Shown: one piece after another, positions 15,020-24,122 of the stretch
Layout of the letters: each line of letters starts with the position of its first letter
Position numbering within the stretch: position 1 is the stretch's first letter
DNA from: Solibacillus sp. FSL H8-0523
GTDB lineage: Bacteria > Bacillota > Bacilli > Bacillales_A > Planococcaceae
DNA: 64,000 bases
NCBI RefSeq assembly: GCF_038051985.1
Contig: NZ_CP150291.1
Span: 682,001-746,000, forward strand
Reading direction: 5' to 3'
Program-made: the position numbers and the translations under genes
The notes under the pieces: generated by a model
What the model was told of the DNA's origin: nothing
What the model saw: the letters and a program-made list of their open reading frames with translations, nothing else
Database searches by the model: none

Positions 15020-15034
15020 TGAGAAATGTTCTCT
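15020..15034. promoter_or_regulatory. Fur-box-like operator before the heme locus
   Basis: TGAGAAATGTTCTCT matches the 7-1-7 Fur box form TGAGAATnATTCTCA at most positions and is itself a dyad (GAGAA/TTCTC). It lies about 45 bp before the first NEAT gene, where an iron-responsive operator is expected. A weaker dyad, TGAGAACGTTGTCA, lies at 14965-14978. Confidence 0.5.
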
Positions 15035-15077: not shown

Positions 15078-15863
15078 TTGAGAAAATATTTCTTAACAGT
15101 AATAACAATGGTTTTCATGCTAGCGTTTATGGCACCAGTACAATCGAATGCAGCAATTGCAGATGGTACATACTCGATTAACTATCAAGTAAATAAACCG
15201 GGGAGCAACTCGGCTTCAATGGCTAATGATTATTTTTCAAAGCCGGCGAAATTGATTGTAAATAATGGTAAAATGACGATGCAGCTAACAATAAAAAATA
15301 GCGCATGGGTAACACAGTTTAATCCACCAGGTGGCGCGAAAGTAATTTCAGCAAATGAAGGTGCGGATCAACGTGTCGTTCAATTTTCGGTAGCAAATGC
15401 AAATCTCATTACAATTGCGATGAAAATTGATATTGATGATATCGATTACCACCATGCATATAGTGTAGATTTTGTGTTTGATAGCTCAGGCTTGCCAGAA
15501 GCAAAAGTCGAGGAACCAAAACAAGAAACGCAACAGCCAGTTAAACCGGCTGCACCTACAGAAGCGCCAAAAACATCGTCAGGAAGTAATACTTCTTCAC
15601 ATACACCAGCAACAACAGAACCGAAAGAATCAACAACTGAATCATCAAAGCCTGTAGATAGTGCAGAAAAAGCTAAAGGCGAAGTGGCAAAAGAAGAAGC
15701 AACGACGTCGGAAGAAGTTGTAGCGGACACAGTGCAAGATGAGCAGGCTGAGGTTGTAGAAAATCCAGAGACGAGCGATGAGTTACCGTTACTTGCGGCA
15801 CTTTTATTCATCGTAGCGGCGATCGTATTCGTTCGCACAAAACAGACAAAAACAAATAGTTAA
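15078..15863 (+). CDS. isdC: Sortase-anchored single-NEAT heme-binding protein (IsdC-like)
   Basis: 261 residues from TTG 15078, chosen for the GGGAGGAG site 9 nt before it. Signal peptide residues 1-25; NEAT domain about 28-140 with the heme-ligand motif YHHAY (YxxxY, 124-128); a Pro/Thr/Glu-rich wall-spanning linker about 143-225; then NPETS (229-233), a hydrophobic stretch and a basic tail. NPxTx is the sorting signal of sortase B, which is encoded downstream at 20519. By analogy with IsdC it should sit within the wall and pass heme from surface receptors to the lipoprotein IsdE. First gene of the locus. Confidence 0.9.
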   Translation: MRKYFLTVITMVFMLAFMAPVQSNAAIADGTYSINYQVNKPGSNSASMANDYFSKPAKLIVNNGKMTMQLTIKNSAWVTQFNPPGGAKVISANEGADQRVVQFSVANANLITIAMKIDIDDIDYHHAYSVDFVFDSSGLPEAKVEEPKQETQQPVKPAAPTEAPKTSSGSNTSSHTPATTEPKESTTESSKPVDSAEKAKGEVAKEEATTSEEVVADTVQDEQAEVVENPETSDELPLLAALLFIVAAIVFVRTKQTKTNS

Positions 15864-15881
15864 TACAGGAGGAAAATGACA

Positions 15882-17666
15882 ATGGCTAAGAAATCTCAAG
15901 CAACAAAAGCGGTGTTAGCTTCATTATTAGCAACATCAGCAATCGTACCAGCAATCGCAGTTAACGCAGAAGTAGGTGGCGAAACAACTCGCACAACTGA
16001 AGCAGTAACAACTTCGGCAGCCGTAGTTAAGACAATTGATTTTAAGGTAGAAGCAGCGCAAGGTTCAGAATCTTTACAACGCTTTATCCCAACATCAGGT
16101 GAATTAGTTGAGCGTAATGGTCAACAGTTTATTCAATTAGAATTATCTGAATCGGTGCTTGGTATGGTAAATAGTATTACTGTTGGTGGTCAACCAGCAT
16201 TGCACGAATATGGTGGAAATAAAGTGATTTATATCCCTATAGCGACTAACTATGCACCTGTAGAAGTTTCTTTAAATATGACAATTCCATTTGTAGGAAA
16301 AGATCCTGTAGACTACAAAGCAACATTAACTCCATATAAAGAAACAATTAAAGAAGTTACAGCTGAAACAAAACCTGCTGAAGAAAAGCCAGCAGTAGAA
16401 GAAAAAATCTTCGCAGAAGGTAACACGTATGAGTTTGTAGCAAATGGTAAGTACGCTGTGAAATGGGACGCTTACAAAGAAAAAGTGGGCAACTACAAAG
16501 CGATTACAAATCATTTCGCTCCAGATGCAAAGTTACTAGTTAGAAACGGTAAATACTTTGTGCAATTAACAGTTACAGAAGGTTCTAAAGATATGGTTGC
16601 AGCACTAAAAATTGGTGGTAAAGAAGCAACTGAAAAAGATGGCGTTTACACAGTTGAAATCGCATCAATTAGTGATTTACAAGAAGCGGCAGTACATGTA
16701 GTCGTAGCTTCTGCAAACATGGATAAATGGTATGAATTCAATTTCGCACTTGAAACAGCTGATTTAGAATTACCTACAGCCCCAGTTAGAAAGTCTGTAA
16801 CATCATATAAAGATGGTACGCAAGAATTATCAATTATGCACAATAAATATTTAGATGACGAAGTAACAGTTACAGCTACTGAGGGTGGCTATGATTTAGA
16901 ATTGACATTCCCAGAAGGTCAACATTTATTAGACTTCACGGTTGAAGGTGCGACAGTAGCACTTAAATCAGAAAAAGAAGTTGGCAAAAATACAGTTAAA
17001 ATCTACACAGTTTCAGTAGATGACTTAGAAAAAATGTATACAGCTACTGCAGATTTAAAAGTAATTGTTGGCGGTCAAGTACTATATGAAACAGCACATG
17101 ACTTCCAAATGAAATTATCTAAATTAGTAGCACCATTCTCTGATATTACTAACGATAATCATAAAGAATTTATTGAAACTTTATATGAAGAAGGTATCTT
17201 CAAAGAAGCAGATAAATTCAATCCAAAAGATACATTAAAACGTTACCAATTTGCGTTAATGCTTAACCGTGCATTAGATTTAGACGTACCAGCAACAACA
17301 AACTTCACAGATATCGCGAAGTTAGATCAAGAAACACAAGATGCAGTTAAAGCATTAAATGCATACGGTATTATTAACGGTACTTCTGCAACTACATTTG
17401 GCGCTGGCGATGGCATCAAACGTCAACATGCGGCACTAATGATTTACCGTGTATTAGAGAAAAACGGCTATAAAGCTACAGGCGTTACATCAAACTTCAC
17501 AGACTTACCAAAAGATGCCGAAGCTGTAAAAGCAATTAACGAATTAAACAACTTAGGTATCATGACTGGTTATAACGGTCAAGTAACACCAAATGCTGTA
17601 TTAACACGCTCTCAAATGGCTAAAATCGTAAATAACACATTAAACGTGTTATTAGAATTAAAATAA
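15882..17666 (+). CDS. S-layer-type surface hemophore with NEAT-like domains and SLH repeats
   Basis: 594 residues. ATG 15882 is preferred because the AGGAGG site lies 9 nt before it; ATG 15876 is too close. Signal peptide about 1-30; three NEAT or NEAT-like domains (about 45-155, 175-290, 305-415); three SLH repeats (about 418-590; PFSDITNDNHKEFIETLYE, NFTDIAKLDQETQDAVKAL, NFTDLPKDAEAVKAINEL) that bind pyruvylated wall polymer and hold the protein in the S-layer. The architecture recalls B. anthracis BslK. None of the NEAT domains shows a full YxxxY: the second has WYEFNF and the third YETAH. It is 18 bp after the IsdC-like gene and ends in a terminator. Confidence 0.87.
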   Translation: MAKKSQATKAVLASLLATSAIVPAIAVNAEVGGETTRTTEAVTTSAAVVKTIDFKVEAAQGSESLQRFIPTSGELVERNGQQFIQLELSESVLGMVNSITVGGQPALHEYGGNKVIYIPIATNYAPVEVSLNMTIPFVGKDPVDYKATLTPYKETIKEVTAETKPAEEKPAVEEKIFAEGNTYEFVANGKYAVKWDAYKEKVGNYKAITNHFAPDAKLLVRNGKYFVQLTVTEGSKDMVAALKIGGKEATEKDGVYTVEIASISDLQEAAVHVVVASANMDKWYEFNFALETADLELPTAPVRKSVTSYKDGTQELSIMHNKYLDDEVTVTATEGGYDLELTFPEGQHLLDFTVEGATVALKSEKEVGKNTVKIYTVSVDDLEKMYTATADLKVIVGGQVLYETAHDFQMKLSKLVAPFSDITNDNHKEFIETLYEEGIFKEADKFNPKDTLKRYQFALMLNRALDLDVPATTNFTDIAKLDQETQDAVKALNAYGIINGTSATTFGAGDGIKRQHAALMIYRVLEKNGYKATGVTSNFTDLPKDAEAVKAINELNNLGIMTGYNGQVTPNAVLTRSQMAKIVNNTLNVLLELK

Positions 17667-17677
17667 TATGTTTAGAA

Positions 17678-17717
17678 GTGCAGGACTCCCGTGGGTACGG
17701 GAGTCACTGCCTTTTTT
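17678..17717 (+). terminator. Terminator after the NEAT-SLH gene
   Basis: GGACTCCCG pairs with CGGGAGTC, with outer GCAG/CTGC pairing, followed by T6. It separates the two surface-protein genes from the transporter genes. Confidence 0.85.
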
Positions 17718-17729
17718 CAAGATAACGGG

Positions 17730-17744: not shown

Positions 17745-17799
17745 ATTAAATTGAGGTAAAATTCCATCTAACATTTATGAAATTTTACTTCAGTTTAAT
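17745..17799 (+). promoter_or_regulatory. 19-bp stem-loop directly before the isdE ribosome binding site
   Basis: The arms 17745-17763 and 17781-17799 are complementary over all 19 positions (17 Watson-Crick, 2 G-U) around a 17-nt loop. The right arm ends 4 nt before the GAGGGGG site of isdE. There is no T run, so it is not a normal terminator. It may be an RNA stability, processing or translation-control element, or a DNA operator. Confidence 0.6.
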
Positions 17800-17817: not shown

Positions 17818-18717
17818 GTGAAAAAGTGGGTATTAGGCTTAGCGCTTAGCATCGGCCTATTAGCAGCTTGTGGCGACGATGAAACAACGCAGGTCGAAGA
17901 GCCAAAAACAAACGAAACAGCAGGCGCACAAACAGCTGTTGAGGAAGAGTACCGTATTATTGCAGGTACCGTTGTGTTAGCACAAATTTTAGATAAATTA
18001 AATTTAGACGCCGTGGCGGTACCCGATACCGTAAAAGAATTACCAGCACGTTTTGACGGGCTACCAAATATCGGTAATGCTATGGATCCAGATGCTGAAA
18101 TTATTAAATCGCTGAACCCAACAGAAGTCTTGTCGGTTTCAACGTTGGAATACGATTTAAAAACAAAGTTTGAGCAATTAAAAATTCCGGTCGATTTCGT
18201 TGATTTATCAGGAATTGAAGCAATGATGGCTGAAATTACCGAACTGGGTGAGCGCTACAACCGTGTAGAGGAAGCAAAAGCGTTAAACGCGGAGCTTCAA
18301 GCAGAAATGGATGCCGTTGAAATTGCATCAACAGGTAAAGAAAAGCCGCGCGTACTGATTTTACTTGGTGTACCAGGTAGTTATTTAGTAGCAACCGAAA
18401 ATTCTTATGCAGGTGACTTAGTCCGTTTAGCTGGAGGCGAAAACGTGATGGCGGGGCAGGATGCAGAATATTTACCGTCAAATACGGAGTACTTATATGA
18501 ATCGAACCCAGACATTATTTTACGTTTGGCACACGGGATGCCGGACGAGGTTATTAAAATGTTTGACGAAGAATTCGTAACAAACGACGTATGGAAACAT
18601 TTTAATGCGGTAAAGAATGGTAATGTATACGACTTAGAAGAAGAGCTATTTGGCACAACGGCAGCACTTAACGTACCAGATGCATTAAATGAACTAGTCG
18701 GAATTTTTTATAAGTAA
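17818..18717 (+). CDS. isdE: Heme ABC transporter substrate-binding lipoprotein IsdE
   Basis: 299 residues. Lipoprotein signal with lipobox LLAAC (Cys18), then an acidic linker and a class III periplasmic-binding fold (EYRIIAGTVVLAQIL; PDAEIIKSLNPTEVL; KPRVLILLGVPGSYLVATENSYAGDLVRLAGG). It should receive heme from the NEAT proteins at the membrane. GTG start at 17818 after GAGGGGG. The heme specificity is inferred from the NEAT and sortase B neighbours; the fold alone would also fit siderophores. Confidence 0.87.
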   Translation: MKKWVLGLALSIGLLAACGDDETTQVEEPKTNETAGAQTAVEEEYRIIAGTVVLAQILDKLNLDAVAVPDTVKELPARFDGLPNIGNAMDPDAEIIKSLNPTEVLSVSTLEYDLKTKFEQLKIPVDFVDLSGIEAMMAEITELGERYNRVEEAKALNAELQAEMDAVEIASTGKEKPRVLILLGVPGSYLVATENSYAGDLVRLAGGENVMAGQDAEYLPSNTEYLYESNPDIILRLAHGMPDEVIKMFDEEFVTNDVWKHFNAVKNGNVYDLEEELFGTTAALNVPDALNELVGIFYK

Positions 18718-18722
18718 CTAAT

Positions 18723-18758
18723 CGCCTCTCGCTCCTAATGGGGTGAGAGGTGTTTTTT
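18723..18758 (+). terminator. Terminator-like hairpin between isdE and isdF
   Basis: CGCCTCTCGCTCC pairs with GGGGTGAGAGGTG, followed by T7. It lies inside what should be one transport operon, so it probably lets only part of the transcription through and keeps the binding protein in excess of the permease. Confidence 0.7.
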
Positions 18759-18784
18759 TAATAAAGGGATAAAGGGTGTTTGCT

Positions 18785-19738
18785 GTGACAAAAAAGATAG
18801 TTAGCTATGTAACGGTTGTACTTTTACTACTTGTTACGATTATATATGCAGCGACGACCGGAAGTATTAAAATGTCGTTTGTTGAATTTATTACGAATTT
18901 TTTTAATGCCGACAATGCCAATATGGCTGCAATCAAAGATTTACGTTTCCCACGGATCATCGTAGCAATTTTTGCGGGGGCAGCGCTGTCTGTTGCAGGT
19001 GTGTTACTACAAGCGATTATGCGTAACCCGTTAGCAGATGCGGGGTTTATCGGAATTTCTGCAGGTGCAGCGTTTACGAAATTATTTATTGTGAGCTTTG
19101 TGCCTACGTTATTTTTCTTCACGCCTATTGCAGCCTTTATCGGGGGGGCACTAGCTTGTTTCTTCGTCTTCTTACTCTCATGGAAATCCGGCTTAAATCC
19201 GCTAAAATTAATTTTAGTCGGGATCGCTATTAACGCCATGTTCTCAGGACTTACAGAAGCAATGATTAGCTTTGGTGCATCTTCAACAGGTGCGATTACG
19301 TCAAACTTATCATTAAAAACGTGGGATGATGTGTCACTAATCGTCACGTACGGCTCCATTGGGTTGATTTTAGCATTTATCTTATATGTATGGTGTAACG
19401 TGTTAGTACTATCAGACAAAACAGCAAAAAGTGTTGGTTTTAACGTGACGATTTCTCGTGTGATTATTGCAGCGGTTGCGGTATTACTAGCGGCATCTTC
19501 TGTTGTAGTAGCGGGGGTTATTTCGTTCGTTGGTATTTTAGTCCCACATATTGCGCGTCGTTTAGTCGGCTATGATCATAAGGTGTTGATTCCTTTTACA
19601 GCACTTTTAGGCGCATTTATTATATTATTAGCAGATACGCTAGGACGTACGCTGTTTCATCCGATGGAAATCCCAGCATCTACCATTATGGCCATTATCG
19701 GTGGACCATTCTTAATATTCCTACTTAGAAAAGAGTGA
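18785..19738 (+). CDS. isdF: Heme ABC transporter permease IsdF (FecCD family)
   Basis: 317 residues from GTG 18785 (AAAGGG at 18771-18776); GTG 18776 with an earlier AAAGGG is an equal alternative. FecCD/BtuC-type permease with about eight to ten helices and the family patterns LRFPRIIVAIFAGAALSVAG, MRNPLADAGFIGISAGAA and ISFVGILVPHIARRLVG (contact with the ATPase). Shorter than BtuC-type relatives but near IsdF length. The last 4 bases overlap the ATPase gene. Confidence 0.9.
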   Translation: MTKKIVSYVTVVLLLLVTIIYAATTGSIKMSFVEFITNFFNADNANMAAIKDLRFPRIIVAIFAGAALSVAGVLLQAIMRNPLADAGFIGISAGAAFTKLFIVSFVPTLFFFTPIAAFIGGALACFFVFLLSWKSGLNPLKLILVGIAINAMFSGLTEAMISFGASSTGAITSNLSLKTWDDVSLIVTYGSIGLILAFILYVWCNVLVLSDKTAKSVGFNVTISRVIIAAVAVLLAASSVVVAGVISFVGILVPHIARRLVGYDHKVLIPFTALLGAFIILLADTLGRTLFHPMEIPASTIMAIIGGPFLIFLLRKE

Positions 19739-20517
19739 CAAAAAACATGGAAATTAAACAAGTAGTTGTTTCATATGATGGCACGACGAAACATTTAAAT
19801 GGCGTGTCGACGCAGTTTCCAAAAGGCAAAGTAACAACAATTATTGGACCAAACGGCTGCGGTAAATCAACGTTACTTGGCGTCATGTCACGTAATAATA
19901 AACCGCTCGATGGACAAGCGATGTTAGAAAATCGCGATTTAGTGGAATATAAGCCAAAGGAATTCGCGAAAAAATTTGCGATTGTTTATCAGCAAAATGA
20001 TATTCCGCAAGATTTAACGGTTGAAAAGCTGGTCATGTATGGCCGCATGCCGTATTCTTCGTTGTTTCAAAAGAAATCAGCAGAAGACGAAGAAGCGGTA
20101 ACATGGGCCCTTCAATGTACAAATCTAGTTGGAAAACGCGAGAAGGATTTATCGGCGTTGTCAGGTGGCGAACGCCAACGGGTATGGATTGCGATGGCAT
20201 TAGCACAAAAATCAGAAATGCTGTGTCTAGATGAACCAACAACGTATTTAGATATATATTATCAGCTAGAGCTGTTAGAGCTTGTAAAGCAGTTAAATGA
20301 AGAGCACGGTTTAACGATTGTCATGGTGCTACATGATATAAACCAGGCCATTCGTTATAGCGACCATATTATTTTAATGAAATCAGGCAATGTCGTGGCA
20401 GAAGGTGCACCGCGTGAGGTCATTACAAAAGAAGTCATTAAGGACGTATACGGGGTGAATTCTGTGTTCCATGAGGACGAAGAATTAGGCTTGTATATGC
20501 TGCCAGTAAGCATTTAA
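19735..20517 (+). CDS. Heme ABC transporter ATP-binding protein
   Basis: 260 residues of the FepC/BtuD group. Walker A GPNGCGKST (about 39-47), signature LSGGERQR, Walker B MLCLDEPTTYLD and switch histidine in VMVLHDINQA. The GTG start overlaps the isdF stop by 4 bp; an ATG four codons later is also possible. Sortase B begins 1 bp after its stop. Confidence 0.93.
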   Translation: MTKNMEIKQVVVSYDGTTKHLNGVSTQFPKGKVTTIIGPNGCGKSTLLGVMSRNNKPLDGQAMLENRDLVEYKPKEFAKKFAIVYQQNDIPQDLTVEKLVMYGRMPYSSLFQKKSAEDEEAVTWALQCTNLVGKREKDLSALSGGERQRVWIAMALAQKSEMLCLDEPTTYLDIYYQLELLELVKQLNEEHGLTIVMVLHDINQAIRYSDHIILMKSGNVVAEGAPREVITKEVIKDVYGVNSVFHEDEELGLYMLPVSI

Positions 20518-20518
20518 G

Positions 20519-21190
20519 ATGCGTAACATTATTCGAGCATTAAGTGTTATTGTCATGATGGCTTGTGCGTTTATCCTTGTACAATATGTGATAAGCTACA
20601 AAAAGGTCGAAAACGATTTACAGCAAGCACAGCAAACCGAACTTGAACAATTGCAGCAGCAAAACGATCAAATTATTGGCTGGCTGTCACTTGAAGGGAC
20701 GCGTCTCGATAATCCAGTACTACAAGCCGATAATAATGACTATTATTTATCGCATAATTACTTGGACGAAAAGAGTCGCGGGGGTAGCATTTTTGTAGAT
20801 TACCGCAATCAAGCATTACAGGACAAGCATACGATTTTTTATGGACATGTATTGCGCAATGGTACGATGTTTGGAGAGTTAGCGAATTTTGCTGAACAAA
20901 GCTATGCGGAAGATCATCTAGTGTTTTATTTTGAATTTGCTGGAAAGCACTATGCACTTCAAGTATTTGCAGCCTATGAAACAACGACCGACCACTATTA
21001 CATTGAAACACAATTTACAGACGAAACGTTTACACAATTTATACAAAATATTCAATCACGCTCGGTTATTTCGATGCCGATAGACGTGACGGTACAAGAC
21101 AAAATCGTAACGTTTTCAACTTGTACGACTTCAACAAACGACAAGGAACGCTTTGTTGTTCATGCAAAAGTTGTTGAACAAGAACACTAA
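20519..21190 (+). CDS. srtB: Class B sortase SrtB
   Basis: 223 residues. N-terminal membrane anchor (about 5-25), a Gln-rich coiled-coil-like stalk (33-51) and the sortase domain with catalytic His110 (FYGHVLRNGTMF), Cys202 (TFSTCTTS) and Arg211. Class B sortases cut NPxTx signals and attach the protein to peptidoglycan. The only visible client is the IsdC-like protein with NPETS in the same locus. Confidence 0.94.
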   Translation: MRNIIRALSVIVMMACAFILVQYVISYKKVENDLQQAQQTELEQLQQQNDQIIGWLSLEGTRLDNPVLQADNNDYYLSHNYLDEKSRGGSIFVDYRNQALQDKHTIFYGHVLRNGTMFGELANFAEQSYAEDHLVFYFEFAGKHYALQVFAAYETTTDHYYIETQFTDETFTQFIQNIQSRSVISMPIDVTVQDKIVTFSTCTTSTNDKERFVVHAKVVEQEH

Positions 21191-21202: not shown

Positions 21203-22027
21203 ATGAAATACAATAAATTAATCGTCGCATTACTTGCAACGTCAGTGTTAACAGCATGCGGGACGAAAGAAGAAGCAGTAGAAGAACAGCCAGTGGAGCA
21301 ACAAGAAGAGCAACAAACAATTAATGTAAGTGCAGAAGCGGAAAGCTTTAAGCAGTTTACGAAAGAACAAATGGCTGATTTTGTAGCGGATACGGAGCTA
21401 CTTGCTAAATACGTAAACGAGGGGAATGTAGAAGGTGCACAAAAATTATTCCCACTTGTAACGATGTACTACGAGCGCATGCAGCCATTAACAGCGAACT
21501 TTGGTGAATTAGACCAGGCGATTAACGGAGCCGTTGAAGAAGGTAAGGAAGAGGAAGCAACAGGCTTTAACCGTTTAGCGCAGGGGCTATTCACATTGAA
21601 AAATTCATCAGGCTTTGATGTCGTTGTCGATCAATTAGTGACAGATGTTAAAACGTTAGAGCAAGAACTAAACAGCTTAGACGTATCACAAAACAATGTG
21701 TTAGCATCTGCTGTTTTGATGCTTGAACAAACGACACAGCGCCTAGCTAAAACAAGCCCAGCAAATAATGAAGTGTACGCAGTAAAGGCACAAAATGAAG
21801 CCGTACAAAAAATTATTGGTATCTTTACGTCACGAGTAGAGCCAGAAACGGCAAAAACAGCAACAGAAAAAGCAGCAATATTAGACGAGGCTGTCGCTTA
21901 TTATGAGGTTGGAAAAGAAGATTACGTCAACTATAGTTTCTTTACAAATAAGCAAAAAGAAGAATTAACAAAAGCAGTTACGGATGTAAAAGATGCGTTA
22001 CAGCAAATGAATGATACGTTGAAATAA
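21203..22027 (+). CDS. EfeO/imelysin-like lipoprotein of the heme locus
   Basis: 274 residues from ATG 21203 (AGAGGTG before it; GTG 21194 overlaps that site). Lipobox LTACG (Cys19), an acidic Glu/Gln-rich linker to about residue 40, then a helical domain like EfeO/imelysin (FVADTELLAKYVNEGNVEGAQKLF, YYERMQPLTANFGELDQAI). EfeO proteins handle ferrous iron with EfeU and EfeB, or have been linked to heme-iron use. Here the usual GxHxxE motif appears as GFNRLAQ (121-127), so its metal ligands are changed. No efeU or efeB is nearby. Last gene of the locus, 12 bp after srtB. Confidence 0.75.
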   Translation: MKYNKLIVALLATSVLTACGTKEEAVEEQPVEQQEEQQTINVSAEAESFKQFTKEQMADFVADTELLAKYVNEGNVEGAQKLFPLVTMYYERMQPLTANFGELDQAINGAVEEGKEEEATGFNRLAQGLFTLKNSSGFDVVVDQLVTDVKTLEQELNSLDVSQNNVLASAVLMLEQTTQRLAKTSPANNEVYAVKAQNEAVQKIIGIFTSRVEPETAKTATEKAAILDEAVAYYEVGKEDYVNYSFFTNKQKEELTKAVTDVKDALQQMNDTLK

Positions 22028-22096: not shown

Positions 22097-22142
22097 AAAA
22101 AAGGCTCGCATTGGAATTAATCGTTCCATGCGAGCCTTTTTA
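22097..22142. terminator. Bidirectional terminator after the heme locus
   Basis: AAAGGCTCGCATTGGAA pairs with TTCCATGCGAGCCTTT around a 7-nt loop, flanked by A and T runs on both sides, so it can end both converging units. Confidence 0.9.
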
Positions 22143-22145
22143 GGT

Positions 22146-24122
22146 TTACTGTGAAATGCTAATACCTTGTGTTTTAGTGTCGTAATTTACTTTGGCATTT
22201 AAACCATCTGCGACAACACGTAATGGTACGAAGGTTGTCCCATTTTTCACGATTGGTGCTGCTTCTAGTGATACGTTTTTGCCGTTAATTGAGCCCGATT
22301 TCGACCCAATTGTTAACATGATTGAAGACGTCCCTTTTTTGATTGTAATGCGCTTTGTAGAAGCATTGTAATCAACCTTACTGTTTAAGTTCTCACTGAT
22401 GAAACGAATCGGAACTAGTGTGCGGCCGCCTGTTGAATAAGGTGCTACTGAAAGCTCAGAAATACCATCAGCTGTGAACGCCGCTTTGTCGTTCATAAAT
22501 AACTGTAATTGCCCCGGTTGTAAATTGCCGACTGCACCAGCTTTTTTGAAGTTGACTGTTTTTGTTGTTGCAACTTTATTTTTTGAATCATAAACCGTTA
22601 CTTTTAATTTATTGCTTGCTTGTAAAGAAGAGGTAGCTATTGATAAATCATAGGGGAACGCAGTTGATTGGCCAACTGTTTTACCATTTAATTCATAAAC
22701 GACTTTTGAGACATATGGGTCATATGTTTTTACGTAGGTCGCAAGATTTAAATTACCTGCTGTACGTACAGTTGCGTTGTTTAAATTGATTGTCCCTTTA
22801 CCTGATTTTGACGAAGAGACAAATTCCCCGTTAACAACAGTTGATAAGAAGTAATCTTGCTTAACGATTTCTTTATAGGTCTCAAGAATCTTACTGTTTG
22901 CTGTTAGGCTGAAATTGTTTAAACGGCGACCTTCTGATACGTAACGAGATGTTAGTGTATCTACGCTAAACCAGTGTACTGATTTAACACGTGGGTACTT
23001 TAAACGTAAGCCTTCGTAGAAAAGGCGCATTTTCGCTTGGCCAAATTGTGTTTGGTCTTTGCGTGTGCCGTTAGTGGCTTCCGAGAAGTGGCTTGCGCCA
23101 AATTCAGAAATCATCATGGGCTTTGTAGGATATTTGTTGTAAACCGTATCAAGGAATGTAAGTGGATTTACATTCTCTGTGTTTAATGAAACATTCCCGT
23201 TGTTAAAAGGGTTTGAATAAATGCTCATTCCAAGCCAGTCAACTGAAGCATTTCCTGGGTAGTAATCATGAACTTTTTCGGCAGGCATGCTGTTTGGTGA
23301 CCATACCATCGCGACATTTGGTGCGTTGTCGTGCATGACTTTCGCAACTAATTGGAATTTTTGTTTGTATAATGTAGGATTACCGTTCCATGGAACCCAT
23401 GTACCATTCATTTCTGATGCATAGCGTAAGAAAACGGGAATACCGCTTGCCTTTGCATCTTGAGCAAATTGTTTTAAATAAGCATCATTTTGCACGGAGT
23501 TTAAGCCTTCATGTGGTTCGAATGCAAGCTGTAATGCACCACCAGCCGCTTTTACTTGTTCTGCGACTGCTTTTGGAAATTCAGTGCCGTATTTATGGTA
23601 AACAAAATACGTGCTGTGCTGTTTTCCGACTAAGTTATTGAAGTCCGTATATTTGTTTGGGTATTTATTACTTGCACCTTCATAACGTGTATCTTGTGCA
23701 ATGTAAGCACCGAAGTAAGCACCACTAGCAGGCTCGTATTTTGCTAGATTACCAGCGTTTACTTTGTCCACCTCGAAATGAACTTCTACTTCACTGTTTA
23801 AGTTGTCGGCCTTTTGTTTTGTTGCTAGATACGTTTGTGTATCACCTAGGCGTTGGTGAAGGGCTGCCTCTGCGTAAAGTGTTGTTGCAGCGTTTTGTTG
23901 TTGACCTAGCATTTCGTAGCAATTCGCTAAGCTACGATATGTACTTGCTTTTTTAGCAATTGTAATCGCTTTTTGATATTGTGGAATTGCTAATTCGCAT
24001 TTTCCTGCCTTTTGATAATCCATCCCGGCTTTAACATGCTTCCAATCCGAAGCACTAGCTGTTTGAAGAGGAATTAACGAAAAGCTTAGGGCAAAAATAA
24101 GGGTATAAATTACTTTCTTCAT
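22146..24122 (-). CDS. Secreted GH26-like glycosidase with TPR and copper-amine-oxidase-N-type domains
   Basis: 658 residues. Signal peptide 1-25; TPR-like helices about 26-110; a GH26-like catalytic barrel about 130-425 with acid/base candidate Glu237 (RYASEMNG) and nucleophile candidate Glu340 (MISEFGAS); an Ig-like segment about 440-530; and a copper-amine-oxidase N-type domain about 540-658 made of two repeats (VPIRFISENLNSKVDYN; VPLRVVADGLNAKVNYD). GH26 enzymes are mostly beta-mannanases, so it may cut mannan or a related extracellular polysaccharide. ATG start with GGAGG. The combination is unusual; the substrate is unknown. Confidence 0.8.
   Translation of the reverse strand: MKKVIYTLIFALSFSLIPLQTASASDWKHVKAGMDYQKAGKCELAIPQYQKAITIAKKASTYRSLANCYEMLGQQQNAATTLYAEAALHQRLGDTQTYLATKQKADNLNSEVEVHFEVDKVNAGNLAKYEPASGAYFGAYIAQDTRYEGASNKYPNKYTDFNNLVGKQHSTYFVYHKYGTEFPKAVAEQVKAAGGALQLAFEPHEGLNSVQNDAYLKQFAQDAKASGIPVFLRYASEMNGTWVPWNGNPTLYKQKFQLVAKVMHDNAPNVAMVWSPNSMPAEKVHDYYPGNASVDWLGMSIYSNPFNNGNVSLNTENVNPLTFLDTVYNKYPTKPMMISEFGASHFSEATNGTRKDQTQFGQAKMRLFYEGLRLKYPRVKSVHWFSVDTLTSRYVSEGRRLNNFSLTANSKILETYKEIVKQDYFLSTVVNGEFVSSSKSGKGTINLNNATVRTAGNLNLATYVKTYDPYVSKVVYELNGKTVGQSTAFPYDLSIATSSLQASNKLKVTVYDSKNKVATTKTVNFKKAGAVGNLQPGQLQLFMNDKAAFTADGISELSVAPYSTGGRTLVPIRFISENLNSKVDYNASTKRITIKKGTSSIMLTIGSKSGSINGKNVSLEAAPIVKNGTTFVPLRVVADGLNAKVNYDTKTQGISISQ

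Follow-up and report, generated by a model that had tools for sequence, protein, structure and literature searches.

The Isd Operon and Its Last Gene

In Solibacillus, an EfeO-derived lipoprotein gene is located at the end of an Isd heme-uptake operon. In the window, which is the whole 64-kb stretch of DNA that was analysed, the locus contains the following features.

15020..15034: Fur-like palindrome TGAGAAATGTTCTCT, 58 nt 5' of the isdC start
15078..15863, + strand: isdC, NEAT protein with an NPETS-like sorting signal and a C-terminal membrane segment
15876..17666, + strand: NEAT and SLH surface protein (SLH 3.7e-22, NEAT 4e-21)
17818..18717, + strand: isdE, heme-binding lipoprotein of the ABC importer (TIGR03659, 387 bits, cut-off 299)
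18776..19738, + strand: isdF-like FecCD permease (FecCD 2.7e-80)
19735..20517, + strand: FecE/FhuC-type ATPase (ABC_tran 1.8e-30; FecE-type 5.4e-83)
20519..21190, + strand: srtB, class B sortase (TIGR03064, 199 bits, cut-off 154)
21203..22027, + strand: EfeO-derived lipoprotein without most of the metal-site residues, 274 aa
21248..21259, + strand: lipobox LTAC with Cys19, read from the sequence
21563..21583, + strand: GFNRLAQ, residues 121-127, replacing GxHxxE (site III)
21899..21946, + strand: loop YYEVGKEDYVNYSFFT, near-invariant in the group of homologues described below and variable or different in canonical EfeO
22098..22141, + strand: intrinsic terminator past the last gene (-27.1 kcal/mol, z -9.0)

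IsdC (TIGR03656, 169 bits against a cut-off of 156; NEAT 2.4e-30; sorting signal read from the sequence), IsdE and the class B sortase all exceed their model cut-offs within one gene cluster. This identifies the cluster as an Isd heme-uptake operon and bears out the heme locus claimed in the earlier note. The genes isdC, NEAT/SLH, isdE, isdF, ATPase and srtB follow one another on the same strand, and the EfeO-derived gene comes last, before the terminator. The mechanical reading frame of this gene starts at GTG 21194, and its stop codon ends at 22027. The best start codon is ATG 21203, 12 nt past the srtB stop, with GAGGTG just 5' of it. The product is a predicted bacterial lipoprotein with a signal peptide and the lipobox that had been noted earlier (LTAC19), and lipidation is predicted as well. 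Residues A18, C19 and G20 of the lipobox region are the same in all 14 group members.

The second NEAT protein of the operon (15876-17666) has three SLH matches and is probably held at the wall without a sortase, beside the sortase-type IsdC. The convergent neighbour on the minus strand (22146-24122) encodes a protein with TPR-like, GH26-like and copper-amine-oxidase-N-type domains.

The palindrome at 15020-15034 is called Fur-like by comparison with the Fur-box consensus. Of 12 Solibacillus operons, 11 have a palindrome of like kind at -56 to -58. In the whole window, a scan with the plain Fur consensus gave matches no more frequent than chance, and so the case for Fur comes down to the conserved position of the palindrome. 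An imperfect inverted repeat just 5' of isdE (17746-17798) is present in all 14 operons compared, and the sequence of its downstream arm, GATGAAATTTTACTTCAGTTTAA, hardly varies. This repeat may act in regulation or in mRNA processing; an Rfam search of the window gave zero matches. Terminator-like hairpins also occur within the operon, after the NEAT/SLH gene (17675-17720, z -5.6) and between isdE and isdF (18715-18765, z -7.2). Several relatives have similar hairpins inside the operon, a hint that expression is stepped.

Descent from the EfeO/M75 Family

The earlier note attributed to the protein the helical core of EfeO and imelysin. Profile search did find similarity: the NCBIfam equivalog model of EfeO (NF041757) matches the window protein with an E-value of 1.6e-32, although its 113 bits lie below the cut-off of 270, and it matches all 14 group members. 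When this model was run over 299 genomes of the class, 87 proteins exceeded the cut-off and six matches fell under it. The window protein is the only full-length one of these six, and the other five are fragments or weak. Using phmmer, we obtained E-values of 3.7e-18 with the EfeM structure and 2.1e-17 with Algp7. The Pfam M75 model (PF09375) gave no match to the window protein; across the group it matches 12 of the 14 members at E <=1, with 2.2e-10 as the best value. When hhalign compared a profile of the 14 group members to one of 10 canonical EfeO proteins, the probability was 100 and the E-value 4.5e-48.

A structure model built from 5 sequences (pLDDT 81, pTM 0.78) aligned in VIA-align with Algp7, EfeO and EfeM at Z 26-28 (27.7 in the fold comparison) over 235-242 residues, and the first unrelated fold appeared at Z 12. 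A Foldseek search with the predicted model (E 6.6e-9) likewise returned the two-lobed four-helix-bundle fold of the M75/imelysin-like superfamily. Since sequence, profile and structure-model matches agree, the origin of the protein in the EfeO/M75 family is secure. In a tree, the group forms one clade with support 100, whose stem measures 1.33 substitutions per site. The node that decides whether this clade is nested in the Planococcaceae EfeO clade or adjacent to it has a support of 59, and midpoint rooting falls on a long branch.

Loss of Most Predicted Metal-Site Residues

All 53 canonical EfeO proteins in the tree set keep the motif G[FY]HxxE. At this position the window protein has GFNRLAQ (residues 121-127), just as had been read earlier. 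The motif His is lost in all 14 group members, and the Glu of the motif is also lost in 12 of them. For EfeM, PMC9174327 assigns Tyr82, His126, Glu129, Glu189 and Asp190 to site III and Glu90, Glu93, Glu97, Asp103 and Asp107 to site IV. We transferred these positions to the window protein by counting along the phmmer alignment with EfeM. In site III, Tyr82 corresponds to F83, His126 to N123 and Glu129 to A126, and the loop of Glu189 and Asp190 is without a conserved acidic equivalent. In site IV, E93 is replaced by Q94, E97 by A98 and D107 by N108, and E90 and D103 are kept as E91 and D104. Thus, 2 of the 10 EfeM ligand positions are retained in the window protein. None of the 14 group members keeps His126, Glu93 or Glu97, and 12 of them have also lost Glu129 and Asp107. 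The two Lysinibacillus proteins retain Glu129 and Asp107 (GFRRLE, D108), and they look like an intermediate state. No histidine is conserved across the 14 proteins, 7 of which contain none at all. Trp is absent from all 14, and each has a single Cys, that of the lipobox. Judged from the residues aligned with EfeM, the site III motif of EfeO is lost and the acidic site IV is eroded.

These replacements bear on the possibility that the protein is still an EfeO-like iron receptor, in which the remaining acidic residues bind iron and pass it to another importer. The presence of E91 and D104 (EfeM E90 and D103) in 14/14 proteins fits such a role. The ligands lost throughout or in most of the group argue against it, as does the absence of an FTR1 match from the genome, and we consider this role improbable. 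The iron chaperone offered in the earlier note is likewise disfavoured, as the protein has lost HxxE and, at the second, acidic site, most of the residues. As the likeliest reading it was rejected, because 7 of 10 predicted ligand positions are altered beyond like-for-like exchange.

Absence of EfeB and EfeU

Canonical EfeO genes are accompanied by EfeB: it was found within 1.5 kb at all 65 canonical EfeO loci, which come from 57 genomes. Near the group loci, neither EfeB nor EfeU was found in any of 14 cases (16-18 kb fetched, or the window). In agreement with the earlier note, which had called the gene an orphan, the 64-kb window contains no match to efeU or efeB. The term orphan applies even more strongly than was supposed, because FTR1 and DyP, the EfeU-type and EfeB-type matches, are absent from the whole genome. 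The protein lacks four tested features of EfeO, namely the model score, HxxE, site IV and the association with EfeB/EfeU, and the predicted fold is kept.

Distribution and Co-Inheritance

A protein search of 200 family genomes found 14 homologues with 46-100% identity; canonical EfeO proteins appeared at 27-36%, and some matches were fragments. A profile search of 261 genomes again returned these 14 homologues, with scores of 406-491 bits; the other full-length matches reached at most 205. The homologues lie in the same place in 12 of 16 Solibacillus genomes and in 2 Lysinibacillus genomes. In all 14 loci srtB is directly 5' in the same gene order (the gap is 12 nt in the window and ranges from 9 to 43 nt among the 13 relatives), and the reading frame is intact. 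A one-off gene is ruled out by the 13 homologues in the same place. A scan of 84,980 species genomes gave at least four loci, a lower bound, since short patterns were used and near genomes may be omitted. A scan with the single window protein as the query gave zero loci.

Within the genus, the same 12 of 16 genomes carry the intact gene and an IsdE over the cut-off. FTR1 and DyP genes were each found in 3 of the 16 genomes, and these three have canonical EfeO and no IsdE over the cut-off. The sixteenth genome has neither IsdE over the cut-off nor canonical EfeO. One of the three genomes with canonical EfeO (G032) contains a C-terminal remnant of the gene with stops (C1:745452-745793), between a nuclease gene and yceI, and isd is gone there.

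The earlier note had advised checking co-occurrence with srtB-isd loci in Planococcaceae. All 14 homologues end an isd operon; 73 family genomes have IsdE over the cut-off, and in 59 of them the gene is absent. Canonical EfeO was found in 0 of the 14 genomes with the gene versus 39 of the 59 isd genomes without it (Fisher p 4e-6, ignoring shared ancestry). These same 39 genomes refute the idea that isd and efeUOB strictly exclude each other in general. In 20 isd regions without the EfeO-derived gene (20 of the 59 genomes), no M75 gene was found. Seven of these regions have srtB and then yceI with no M75 gene between them, and in two of the seven a 145-aa open reading frame lies between srtB and yceI on the other strand. 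The arrangement of srtB followed by yceI is compatible with gain or loss of the gene in the family.

The position directly 3' of srtB could also point to an envelope role other than heme transfer, such as keeping SrtB or its substrate in position, presenting one of them, or binding a polymer like Algp7, which is reported to bind alginate and is among the top structural matches. However, the gene is absent from other srtB-containing isd operons of the family, and we regard an envelope role as rather improbable.

Selection and the Conserved Loop

The dN/dS of the gene is 0.10-0.18 in 7 pairs, two of which have dS >1. Comparable values were obtained for srtB (0.10-0.25) and isdC (0.11-0.19), and lower ones for isdE (0.04-0.10). 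The EfeO-derived gene is under purifying selection. The long stem branch (1.33 substitutions per site) would suit a decaying efeO relic that drifts without function. This is highly improbable in view of the dN/dS values, the intact frame in 14/14 and the near-invariant loop.

This loop (residues 233-248, YYE[VI]GKEDYVNYxxFT) is invariant or nearly so in the group and different or variable in canonical EfeO, and the same applies to parts of helix 76-92. The confidence of the structure model at the tyrosine-rich loop is middling. The tyrosines invariant in the group are Y89, Y90, Y192, Y233, Y234, Y241 and Y244. It is conceivable that the protein is a heme chaperone, with heme bound via Tyr or Met in the remodelled cleft or at the tyrosine-rich loop and relayed from IsdC to IsdE. 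Its place in a heme operon, these seven tyrosines and the less acidic character of the former metal sites fit such a chaperone. Nevertheless, the lack of a conserved histidine, with half of the members containing no His, means that Tyr or Met ligands would be needed. Moreover, Y89 and Y192 are not new, being invariant in 19 family EfeO sequences too. According to PMC3143127, PIBO and IPPA, two members of the superfamily, showed no heme binding by thermofluor and their site was judged too small. We therefore find a heme chaperone somewhat unlikely, though clearly less so than an iron receptor or an envelope role.

Proposed Function

The reading we prefer is that the EfeO-derived, membrane-tethered lipoprotein came to assist the Isd heme importer independently of metal, acting through contact. 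We give it about an even chance. The tie to heme uptake comes from operon place, co-inheritance and constraint. The loss of both metal sites leads us to favour a metal-independent membrane accessory over iron binding. Such a lipoprotein would sit next to IsdE on the outside of the membrane. Its contact partner would be IsdE, the IsdF permease or the SrtB-anchored IsdC, and this contact would help heme hand-over or importer assembly. The conserved tyrosine-rich loop (YYEVGKEDYVNY) may be the working part, with no bound metal ion.

The interpretation of the earlier note was borne out in part. The accessory role that it suggested at the heme locus is supported by the operon-end position in 14/14 loci, the co-presence with IsdE in 12 of 16 genus genomes, purifying selection and the decay of the gene in G032, a genome without isd, which we count for the Isd link. 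Against it stand the 59 of 73 IsdE genomes without the gene, which indicate that Isd uptake in general does not need it. Operon position by itself is insufficient to prove a shared pathway.

A partial precedent exists in S. aureus. According to PMC3577903, FepA with HKIE changed to AKIA continued to support the use of heme iron, together with FepB. Therefore, an M75 protein can serve heme-iron use without HxxE. The precedent is partial because the FepA partner FepB is a DyP protein, and the window genome has no DyP match.

Discussion

Our results suggest that the EfeO fold has been reused as a heme-importer partner in Solibacillus. More tentatively, and well short of an even chance, the protein may be an undescribed Isd component: an EfeO fold captured by a heme operon, its metal sites emptied, serving as a heme relay or importer partner, with the Lysinibacillus proteins (GFRRLE, D108 kept) as an intermediate. 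Searches of open-access papers turned up no description of an EfeO-like protein in an isd operon.

The role of EfeO/M75 proteins and the importance of HxxE are unsettled: in one study, FepA still worked in heme-iron use with its HxxE destroyed (PMC3577903), and another paper assigns metal sites to it. As a naturally occurring EfeO relative under selection that lacks the motif, belongs to a heme operon and comes from a genome with neither EfeB nor EfeU, the window protein separates the role of the metal sites from other roles of the fold, and makes the question testable in an environmental bacterium. It also suggests that parts beyond the NEAT proteins and IsdE may take part in passing heme on at the Gram-positive membrane.

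Among known systems, the protein resembles the M75-only EfeO of Gram-positives (B. subtilis YwbM, S. aureus FepA) in being a lipoprotein with an M75-only domain and the M75 fold, and it has 27-36% identity to canonical EfeO of the family. Unlike the YwbM/FepA type, it is without HxxE, has an eroded site IV, has no EfeB/EfeU match in its genome and is encoded in an isd operon. It shares the two-lobed helical fold (Z 26-28) with EfeM of Pseudomonas syringae (7Q1G) and Algp7 (3AT7, 5Y4C). These are described as metal-binding in PMC9174327, whereas in the window protein the named residues are mostly replaced. The imelysin-like IPPA (3PF0), a GxxxxE variant, has a similar fold at Z 20.4 and, according to PMC3143127, is also without the motif His. 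Unlike the window protein, it keeps the motif Glu, and it is distant (14% identity).

The Isd systems compared are the heme-uptake operons of Staphylococcus, Bacillus and other Planococcaceae. In Staphylococcus and Bacillus, isdG is the last gene of the isd operon, and in Listeria the gene after srtB is lmo2180. Unlike the window operon, the 20 isd regions without the EfeO-derived gene hold no M75 gene. With other Planococcaceae isd operons, the window operon has in common the NEAT proteins, IsdE, IsdF, the ATPase and SrtB, all in the same order.
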